A DNA stretch of 28,889 bases. It comes from a virus. The position numbers and the translations under genes were made by a program. Location: positions 1-28,889 of the IMG/VR virus record IMGVR_UViG_3300027911_000050. The stretch is one strand, 5' to 3'. Shown in pieces: positions 2,474 to 4,133 of the stretch (positions are counted from its first letter, which is position 1; every line of letters starts with the position of its first letter). The notes under the pieces were generated by a model, which was given only the letters and a program-made list of their open reading frames with translations, was not told the origin of the DNA and did no database searches.

Positions 2474-3148
2474 ATGTACCTAACAGAAGAACAAATCCAA
2501 AGTCGTGAAGAATCTTTTCTAGAGCTAGTCGAAGCCGTCGCAGAAGAATTCTATGACATGAACGAAGAATATACAATGTCCGAGGAAGACGCTTATGTTA
2601 CTTCTTTGTTAATGGATTATTTTGTGGAGAACTTTAAACAACCTACCATGCGTGATGCCGTTATGGAATCATATACTGGTGTTGGTGTTAATGATGCGTT
2701 GTATGAAGAAATCATGGAAATGATGTTGGATGAATCTATTGGTTCGTTTGTTGCTGGTGCTGCTCATGGTATTCGCAATTTATTGAGCAAAGGTGGTAAA
2801 AAAATGGCTCAACGTAGAGCAAATACTGCCGGTAAACGTGCATCTTCATTAAAAGCTAAATCTTCGGCTGCTGCTAAGGCTGCTAAAGGAAAGACCGGTA
2901 TTCGTGCCACATTCCACCAAGCTAAATCAGCCGCTGTTAAATCTCGCGCTGATACCGCATCTACCGCTCATTCGGTTGCCAAGACAGATCGTGATGCCGC
3001 TTCTGCAAAACACGCAACAAATGTAAGAAAAACTGGTGAATTGGCCAAGAAGATCGATACTGGAATTTCTAATATCGGAACCAAAATCAAGTCTGGTGCT
3101 CACAAAGTTGTTGGTGCTGCTGGACGTTTGGCTGGTCGATTTGCATAA
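2474..3148 (+). CDS. Acidic/basic two-part protein, histone-H1-like C-terminus
   Basis: 224 residues in two contrasting halves. Residues 1-95 are strongly acidic and helical (many Glu and Asp, motifs such as EEFYDMNEEY). Residues 105-224 are Ala/Lys/Arg/Ser-rich with almost no acidic residues (AKSSAAAKAAKGK and similar), resembling histone H1-like or other disordered DNA-condensing tails. A GGTCG-free, GGAATAACC leader precedes the ATG, so initiation probably uses the AGAGG at 2461-2465. It may be an internal head or core protein in which an acidic segment masks a DNA-binding tail, or a DNA-compaction factor. No known family is recognised. Two hairpins, one a strong terminator, follow the gene. 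Confidence 0.7.
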   Translation: MYLTEEQIQSREESFLELVEAVAEEFYDMNEEYTMSEEDAYVTSLLMDYFVENFKQPTMRDAVMESYTGVGVNDALYEEIMEMMLDESIGSFVAGAAHGIRNLLSKGGKKMAQRRANTAGKRASSLKAKSSAAAKAAKGKTGIRATFHQAKSAAVKSRADTASTAHSVAKTDRDAASAKHATNVRKTGELAKKIDTGISNIGTKIKSGAHKVVGAAGRLAGRFA

Positions 3149-3170: not shown

Positions 3171-3199
3171 AAAGGGACTTGACAGTCCCTTTATTTTAT
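3171..3199 (+). terminator. Rho-independent terminator
   Basis: Perfect 9-bp stem AAAGGGACT / AGTCCCTTT with loop TGAC, followed by ATTTTATT. It separates the H1-like gene from the tmRNA unit. The loop and flanking stem bases also form the TTGACA -35 box of the next promoter. Confidence 0.85.
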
Positions 3200-3207
3200 T
3201 ATATAAT
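3179..3207 (+). promoter_or_regulatory. Perfect consensus sigma70 promoter for the tmRNA unit
   Basis: TTGACA (3179-3184), 17-base spacer, TATAAT (3202-3207), predicting a start near 3213-3215. Both hexamers and the spacing are ideal. It reads directly into the acceptor half of the permuted tmRNA, so host polymerase should make this RNA without phage factors. Confidence 0.85.
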
Positions 3208-3213
3208 TGAATT

Positions 3214-3305
3214 CTTTCAATGGGAAACTATTGAAGAAATTATAGTTGTATGAAGCAACTAGAAACATGTTCTGGACGTGGGTTCGACCCCCACCAGGTC
3301 CACCA
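3214..3305 (+). ncRNA. ssrA: Permuted tmRNA, acceptor (3') piece
   Basis: The segment ends with a tRNA-like 3' half: T-stem GTGGG (3278-3282), T-loop TTCGACC (3283-3289), CCCAC (3290-3294), acceptor strand CAGGTCC (3295-3301), discriminator A (3302) and an encoded CCA (3303-3305). No anticodon or D-arm precedes it, so it is not a tRNA. The acceptor strand pairs over 7 bp with GGGCCTG at 3480-3486 downstream, with G3-U70, the alanine identity pair. ATGTTCT (3267-3273) pairs with AGAGTAT (3507-3513) as helix P2. A local hairpin TAGTTG/CAACTA spans 3243-3261. The 5' boundary is set from the promoter and is approximate; processing may shorten it. This is the half that AlaRS would charge with alanine. 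Confidence 0.88.
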
Positions 3306-3316
3306 TAAGGAAGTTT

Positions 3317-3478
3317 ATGAGAACACTATTAGAACAATATCGTGAAAAGAAACGACAGGAAGAAATACAACGAACCGGTATCGAGGGATATTGTATTTGT
3401 TGTGGTGCTACATGCTATGTCGGAAAAGAAGTAGAACACGATAAAGAGTGTATTTGGTATGAAGAAGATTCCTTATGA
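3317..3478 (+). CDS. Small CCHC zinc-finger-like protein inside the tmRNA intervening segment
   Basis: 53 residues. The N-terminal third is a basic helix (LLEQYREKKRQEE). The C-terminal part has C26, C29, H41 and C45, a C-x2-C-x11-H-x3-C pattern that could bind zinc; C28 and C33 are additional. AAGGA (3307-3311) sits 5 bases before ATG 3317. An upstream GTG in the same frame at 3278 would lie in the tmRNA T-arm and is unlikely as a start. The gene fills the gap between the tmRNA acceptor CCA (3305) and the 5' end of the coding piece (3480), with only one base between its stop and that 5' end. Function is unknown. The location suggests co-transcription with the tmRNA precursor and a short-lived mRNA once the RNA is processed. 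Confidence 0.75.
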   Translation: MRTLLEQYREKKRQEEIQRTGIEGYCICCGATCYVGKEVEHDKECIWYEEDSL

Positions 3479-3479
3479 T

Positions 3480-3645
3480 GGGCCTGTCATGGTTTCGACA
3501 GGGCAAAGAGTATAGAAGTGGACAACTTGACACAGAGAGTCATTAAAAGTAAAATGCAATAAATGCAGCAAACGATGATCGTTTCCTAATGGTCGCAAAC
3601 GGCTAAAATAGGAATGGGGTTTTGGTGGTTGTCCTTATTTTCCAA
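3480..3645 (+). ncRNA. ssrA: Permuted tmRNA, coding (5') piece with tag reading frame
   Basis: It begins GGGCCTGTCATGGTTTCGACAGGG, shown here only to identify the conserved tmRNA 5' end and D-loop (positions 3480-3503; key bases GGTTTCGAC), which binds SmpB. The first 7 bases pair with the acceptor strand at 3295-3301. A resume-like GCA AAC GAT GAT starts at 3568, and the frame runs 12 codons, ANDDRFLMVANG, to TAA 3604-3606. An extra GCA at 3565 could be the true resume codon. A 9-bp stem with one bulge (3605-3613 / 3632-3641) follows and probably marks the 3' end of this piece. Start ANDD matches proteobacterial tags, but the tail lacks the usual LAA-like end. With SmpB the mature two-piece RNA would rescue stalled ribosomes. 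The 3' end is approximate. Confidence 0.88.
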
Positions 3646-3680
3646 TCAATCACTAATTTTATTAATTTAAGGAGTTTTTA

Positions 3681-4133
3681 ATGAAGAAGTTCGCAATCGC
3701 AGCCGTTTTGGCTTTGGCTACTATGGCAGCAAATGCTGTTGAATTTGGTATCGTTGGTTCAACTGTCGAACAAAAGAATCATTTCACCGATTCTGTTGGT
3801 TTGACTGTTGGGCAACATTTCGGTAAATTTAGTGTGACCGCTGAAGCCGACCGTGATGTTACTAAAAATATCAATAAATTCTCAACCATTGGTGGTTATG
3901 ATGTTTTGACATTGGGTACTGCTACTTTTGCCGTTAAAGCTGGCGCAGGTTATGTGGATACAACTAAGTTGATTCCTGCTGATCGTATTGTTGGCTTGGT
4001 TGGTGTTGGTGTGTCCGTTCCAGTTACCAAAACTGTAGCAATGACCGCTGACTATCGCTACCAAGAAGGTCGTGATCAGGCCAAAACATACAATGGCAAT
4101 ACTTTCACAGTAGGCGCTAAATTCTCGTTCTAA
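3681..4133 (+). CDS. Exported outer-membrane beta-barrel-like protein
   Basis: 150 residues. A clear Sec signal peptide (MKKFAIAAVLALATMAANA) has an ANA cleavage site after residue 19. The mature 131 residues alternate polar and hydrophobic positions in strands with Gly and aromatic girdle residues (GLTVGQHFGKFSVTAEAD, FAVKAGAGYVDTT, MTADYRYQEGRD), and the chain ends FTVGAKFSF with a terminal Phe, the beta-signal recognised by the BAM complex. This resembles small OmpX/Lom-like 8-strand barrels. A strong Shine-Dalgarno AAGGAG lies upstream, and the gene directly follows the tmRNA coding piece, so it may share that transcript. A hairpin follows at 4153. Likely roles are blocking superinfection or altering the infected cell surface; this is inference. 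Confidence 0.78.
   Translation: MKKFAIAAVLALATMAANAVEFGIVGSTVEQKNHFTDSVGLTVGQHFGKFSVTAEADRDVTKNINKFSTIGGYDVLTLGTATFAVKAGAGYVDTTKLIPADRIVGLVGVGVSVPVTKTVAMTADYRYQEGRDQAKTYNGNTFTVGAKFSF

Follow-up and report, generated by a model that had tools for sequence, protein, structure and literature searches.

The tmRNA gene analysed here is very probably a betaproteobacterial-like, circularly permuted (two-piece) gene of a T4-type phage, in which the intervening sequence (ITS) between the two halves now serves as a slot in which small protein genes reside. The window, i.e., the whole stretch of DNA that was analysed, is a 28.9 kb linear viral fragment, and its core genes (gp32-like SSB, helicase loader, DNA end protector, tail tube, and baseplate wedge and hub) identify the contig as a fragment of a T4-type phage. 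The ITS of its tmRNA gene is occupied by an ORF that was absent from an earlier reading of this DNA from its letters alone (hereinafter, the sequence-only reading). Comparable ORFs, which we term cargo, were recovered in 83 of 194 distinct viral permuted tmRNAs and fall into 40 unrelated protein families. Comparison of these loci establishes the anatomy, conservation, covariation and exchange of cargo at the level of sequence, and from it we infer that the cargo is expressed.

Anatomy of the permuted tmRNA gene

The region from 3214 to about 3650 (plus strand, as are all features described below) was confirmed as a circularly permuted tmRNA gene by two independent methods. The Rfam model RF04321 matched positions 3244–3600 over its full length (model positions 1–213; 91.8 bits against a cut-off of 47; E = 9.7 × 10–17), and ARAGORN, which is independent of Rfam, called a permuted tmRNA (tmRNA*) at 3213–3697 with the tag AANDDRFLMVANG. 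The sequence-only reading had proposed precisely such a phage-encoded permuted tmRNA and suggested a covariance-model search as a check, and both the proposal and the check are borne out by these matches. The ARAGORN 3′ end at 3697 overlaps the next gene. The gathering-level matches of the window do not include RF01850 (beta_tmRNA), whose cut-off is reached by eight cargo-bearing relatives. Apart from RF04321, no Rfam family was found at gathering level anywhere in the 28.9 kb window; no group I intron was thus detected around the ORF.

The first piece (3214–3305), delineated by RF04321, ARAGORN and the sequence itself, comprises a 5′ leader and the tRNA-like 3′ half, with a T-arm at 3278–3294 (stem 3278–3282/3290–3294) and the acceptor 3′ strand CAGGTCC at 3295–3301, followed by A3302 and the CCA at 3303–3305. 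Next comes the 174-nt ITS (3306–3479), which lies between the CCA and the mature G1 and is presumed to be removed from the precursor. The second piece (3480 to approximately 3650, on the same three lines of evidence) comprises the 5′ half and the mRNA-like domain, and begins with the acceptor 5′ strand GGGCCTG (3480–3486). Direct reading of the sequence thus agrees with the earlier placement of the tRNA-like 3′ half upstream of the 5′ half. All seven pairs of the proposed acceptor stem form, including G3482-U3299, which corresponds to G3-U70, and the conserved D-loop GGTTTCGAC (3491–3499) and the resume region from 3565 are likewise present. Helix P2, however, had been misplaced at 3267–3273/3507–3513: the Rfam model pairs TGT-T-CTG (3268–3274), in the first piece, with CAG-G-GCA (3499–3505). 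The acceptor stem also displays the compensatory changes that a genuine pairing predicts: among the 194 related viral loci there are 22 distinct acceptor combinations, in which the G-U pair at G3-U70 is constant and pairs 4–6 vary as pairs, with absolute pairing percentages being biased by a parser that demanded at least 6/7 acceptor pairs.

Upstream of the gene is a perfect sigma-70 consensus promoter, TTGACA-17 nt-TATAAT (3179–3207; 12/12 matches), with an expected start near 3214; the upstream gene has a terminator-like hairpin (3171–3192), whose loop contains the −35 box. Promoters with at least 10/12 matches occur upstream of the tmRNA in 63 of 189 relatives, mostly at one fixed distance, as against 6 in shuffled sequences. 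The promoter fits expression by the host polymerase, probably early. A 224-aa Ala/Lys-rich protein without a PHROG match is encoded directly upstream of the tmRNA, at 2474–3148, and in many T4-type relatives among the collected viral contigs permuted tmRNAs are found upstream of gp32.

The tag frame (3565–3606; AANDDRFLMVANG followed by a stop) has its resume codon and stop, yet ends in VANG, i.e., in NG and not in the usual C-terminal Ala-Ala, which closes 110 of the 121 distinct viral tags. The window tag most resembles the type ANDSRFLMVA/ANDSRFLMAA (in the loci L424 and L006), relative to which it looks extended by two codons. Other tags without a terminal Ala-Ala were seen in six viral loci (...AANA, ...TANA, ...RANA, ...ARYA, ...LVA and ...MVA), and long tags of 23–33 aa (e.g., ANADTFDFSAMSFTGNTVSGKSKVALAA) recur in more than eight loci, where they sit among otherwise short-tag phage tmRNAs. 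E. coli ClpXP recognises tags chiefly by their terminal Ala-Ala (PMC7652416); by this rule, from which the host's protease may depart, proteins bearing the window tag may escape ClpXP. An Ala-Ala end is usual but not needed for ribosome rescue. The unusual end of the tag leaves the full function of the window tmRNA uncertain and, together with a model score below that of most relatives, could indicate a degenerate tmRNA or an inhibitor of the host tmRNA, acting as a tRNA-like competitor as proposed for mycobacteriophage DS6A. We consider this very unlikely, given the complete tag frame, the G3-U70 pair, the CCA and the perfect promoter, and DS6A has little beyond a tRNA-like domain (PMC4131195).

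Protein genes in the intervening sequence

The ORF in the window ITS (3317–3478) runs from an ATG at 3317 to a TGA at 3476–3478 and encodes a Cys-rich protein of 53 aa (YCICCGATCYVGKEVEHDKEC). A Shine-Dalgarno (SD) sequence, AAGGA, begins 2 nt past the CCA, the 53 codons fill the 174-nt ITS, and the stop lies 1 nt before the mature 5′ end (a single T, then G1). The frame is more open than expected from dinucleotide shuffles (p=0.006), and its codon score, best in frame 0, was reached by 19 of 5000 shuffles. The same score lies at about the first percentile of this phage's other genes, and no homologue was detected by tblastn in phages or viral contigs, in PHROGs, in Pfam or among the other cargos; a further search via the neighboring hydrolase gained a GTG-start cargo and no window-like one. 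Hence, the coding evidence for this particular ORF is weaker, and consists of the open frame and the layout it shares with other loci. That the protein is a zinc-binding host-takeover factor is a guess.

We gathered viral loci from the nearest gp32 relatives, by three DNA patterns and from the nearest hydrolase relatives, and defined cargo as an SD-like motif plus an ATG plus a long ORF in the ITS; three weak ORFs without a proper SD were left out. The cargo rate is lower in the sets unselected for an SD, namely 23/94 for the TGATGGG pattern and 2/21 for the gp32 neighborhood, and the hydrolase set yielded 0/12 by the strict rule plus the one GTG-start case. An SD lies at most 12 nt from the CCA in 77 of the 83 cargo-bearing loci versus 6 of the 111 others, a contrast inflated by the fact that an SD-like motif belongs to the cargo definition; five of those six exceptions, L345 among them, hold ORFs that the definition misses (a GTG start, two ORFs or a shorter ORF). 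The commonest cargo family is a membrane-type peptide of 22–24 aa with 18 distinct sequences, and the remaining cargos are Cys-rich, coiled-coil-like or of no recognised type. The longest cargo-bearing ITS has 382 nt (L323); its 122-aa product gives a weak, sub-threshold match to GNAT acetyltransferases. Three loci contain two or more tandem ORFs in the ITS, each with an SD-like sequence, and in two others the spacer has a further T-arm-like stretch (GGGTTCGACACCCACC / GGGTTCGATTCCCACC) that may be what is left of a tRNA. Most of the contigs are uncultivated metagenomic fragments. A search of cultured phages with the consensus 5′ half returned only BUCT-ZZ01 and a weak match in an Erwinia phage, and no cargo was found in the cultured phage tmRNAs examined (BUCT-ZZ01, Stenotrophomonas phages and Xanthomonas phage X1).

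Several observations point to coding among the cargos at large. Open frames exceed those in dinucleotide shuffles (combined p=2.6 × 10–14; 21 families), and in each of the 12 families with more than one member no codon position varies more than the third, with pN/pS of 0.15–0.67 and, for the best pairs, dN/dS of 0.04 (L135/L219) and 0.14 (L006/L177). By these substitution patterns, all 12 are constrained at the level of the protein. For two cargos the family is already known: that of L205 is a PGDYG protein (PF14083, e-value 3.4 × 10–6; phrog_419, 9.7 × 10–12) and that of L095 a member of phrog_13558 (9.8 × 10–13), both of which are ordinary free-standing genes in other phages. Xanthomonas phage X1 carries an unannotated phrog_13558 relative at 120380–120508, approximately 470 bp upstream of its own permuted tmRNA.

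These data bear on the simplest alternative for the window, namely a plain permuted tmRNA with a non-coding spacer, whose long ITS happens to contain an open frame. Its lack of homologues and poor codon usage would fit such an origin, as would the conservation, even without cargo, of the TGAT tetranucleotide that supplies its stop (see below). On the other hand, the SD and ATG stand at a fixed place, the frame is unlikely to be open by chance at the above p-value, and in other loci ORFs of this layout are constrained at the protein level, some of them belonging to known families; we accordingly regard a chance ORF as distinctly unlikely.

The cargo is also exchangeable, its families sorting independently of the RNA that carries them. 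L230 and L189 carry cargos of different families (25 and 2, respectively) and L168 has a cargo-free ITS of 53 nt, with flanks that are 98–100% identical among the three; L401/L153, L372/L368 and others follow the same pattern. Such near-identical tmRNA backbones with different cargos or none show that the ITS is an exchangeable gene slot, and the conserved tmRNA halves could serve as homology arms for the exchange.

The terminal stem and the ends of the cargo ORFs

The ITS is closed by a covarying stem of 10 bp between its first 10 nt and the 10 nt preceding the final TGAT, which extends, and stacks on, the acceptor stem. In cargo-bearing ITSs 631 of 670 stem pairs form (maximum of 561 in 1000 shuffles), and in cargo-free ones 906 of 970 (maximum of 688 in 1000 shuffles), with several pair types at most positions and many compensatory changes. 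In the cargo versions, the 5′ strand of the stem carries the SD and the 3′ strand encodes the last cargo residues (often VSL or SL). The window conforms to this arrangement: as supported by folding and by covariation in relatives, the 5′ strand TAAGGAA (3306–3312) holds the SD AAGGA, and the 3′ strand TTCCTTA (3469–3475), located by folding, lies within the last ORF codons. The precursor segment folds at a z-score of −5.5 with the SD paired.

The TGA stop and the following T (3476–3479) directly precede the mature G1. This TGAT is kept in 183 of 194 relatives, of which 94 were chosen by a pattern that itself contains TGAT. It also precedes G1 in cargo-free viral loci and in Thauera-type bacterial sequences; hence, the constant place of the stop does not by itself indicate coding, and the cargo would use a pre-existing TGA. 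Among the 40 families, 19 stop at the TGA before G1, 11 stop 9–13 nt upstream of it and one is mixed; in the other nine, no member has a stop before the mature 5′ end and the ORF runs into the tmRNA, as in families 3, 9 and 10 and in family 2, where it passes the cleavage site in all seven members.

This last class and the 19 families with a stop 1 nt from the cut raise the possibility that cargo synthesis is tied to trans-translation, such that the cut leaves the stop at the very 3′ end or, in the nine families, falls inside the ORF and creates a nonstop mRNA, with the same tmRNA then tagging the product in an ArfA-like feedback. The three frames leading into the conserved TGATGGG, however, yield such stop classes by themselves, and we therefore think such a tie unlikely.

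It is quite possible, if short of probable, that the cargo is a phage gene like any other that occupies a convenient gap, with incidental co-transcription and no regulatory link between processing and translation. Co-transcription of tRNAs and mRNAs is known from bacteria, e.g., thrU-tufB; moreover, the 40 unrelated families have no common function and cargo-free versions occur on near-identical backbones. What this account leaves unexplained is that the SD usually lies within the conserved processing stem and that the limits of the ORF are set to the RNA-processing sites.

Under our preferred reading of the ITS as a gene slot, one precursor would be transcribed from the sigma-70 promoter, and a cut by RNase P before G3480 together with 3′ processing that exposes the CCA ending at 3305 would yield the two-piece tmRNA for trans-translation. 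The ITS fragment between the cuts may act as a mini-mRNA or be translated while still within the precursor. As the SD is synthesised well ahead of the strand with which it pairs, the simplest order, and the most likely timing, would be co-transcriptional translation of the cargo, which ends once the stem has closed and processing takes place. A single transcript, probably an early one, would in this way provide the phage with both a tmRNA and a small accessory protein. A more far-reaching version, which we hold to be doubtful, is that the tmRNA spacer is an exchangeable expression cassette in aquatic phages, in which the ribosome-binding site in the processing stem lets maturation of the tmRNA and translation of the cargo exert mutual control, and in which ORFs extending past the cleavage site would give a nonstop mRNA and a cargo tagged by its own tmRNA.

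Relationship to known tmRNAs and significance

The sequence-only reading knew of no permuted tmRNA in T4-type phages, which does not hold: Buchholz et al. (2022; PMC9004378) described a two-piece tmRNA from Melnitz, a T4-like phage, and counted 53 such structures in public phage genomes, of which 50 were of marine or aquatic origin, and a 2025 tmRNA database paper counts 79 bacteriophage tmRNAs (PMC11915505). Melnitz, a Methylophilales phage, and the pelagimyophages resemble the window in having a permuted tmRNA in a T4-like aquatic phage; however, their tmRNA is described with a glutamine riboswitch and no ITS ORF is reported (PMC9004378), and the Melnitz tmRNA is alphaproteobacterial in type, whereas that of the window is beta-like. 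The betaproteobacterial permuted tmRNAs (RF01850/RF04321; Thauera family) share with it the permutation, the acceptor and P2 layout, the terminal stem and the tag type ANDERFALAA, and the Thauera type also shares the TGAT before G1.

Unlike the 174-nt, ORF-bearing ITS of the window, those of the betaproteobacterial examples have no gene inside. Permuted tmRNAs were found in 25 of 61 genomes of the Thauera family, with ITSs of a few to approximately 45 nt; in these 25 sampled relatives the ITS is too short for cargo. In an order-wide sample around Thauera, 5 of 150 genomes scored above the permuted-model cut-off. A bacterial pattern search for an SD plus ATG after the tmRNA T-arm, which demands a four-base gap from CCA to GGA and therefore overlooks TAAGGA layouts such as the window's, recovered 17 genome contigs, 12 with ARAGORN tmRNA calls; only two of these were permuted (Thauera type), with 36-nt spacers devoid of an ORF.

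Two known arrangements also place a gene within a tmRNA gene. The 883 known tmRNA genes with a group I intron, 36 of them with a homing endonuclease (PMC11915505), likewise have a protein gene in a segment removed from the pre-tmRNA; however, these are self-splicing introns in the T-loop region of non-permuted genes, whereas the window has a processed spacer of a permuted gene and no intron. The permuted tmRNA of GCA-2688965 has a foreign gene within its ITS (PMC11915505), but this is a single case and the gene is a tRNA-Ala rather than protein-coding. We found no description of an ORF in a tmRNA intervening sequence in the open-licence literature, and a protein gene in the ITS of a permuted tmRNA, recurrent and exchangeable and also present in other uncultured phages, appears to be new.

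Until now, the permuted tmRNA has been viewed as a single RNA whose spacer is simply discarded; across dozens of phage lineages this spacer would instead be a protein gene, whose start and stop signals are fitted to the RNA-processing sites. The slot offers a small and recognisable place in which to find short phage proteins that are missed by, or lack context in, gene calls. It further makes a link between trans-translation and phage gene expression testable, and bears on the question of why phages keep a tmRNA at all.
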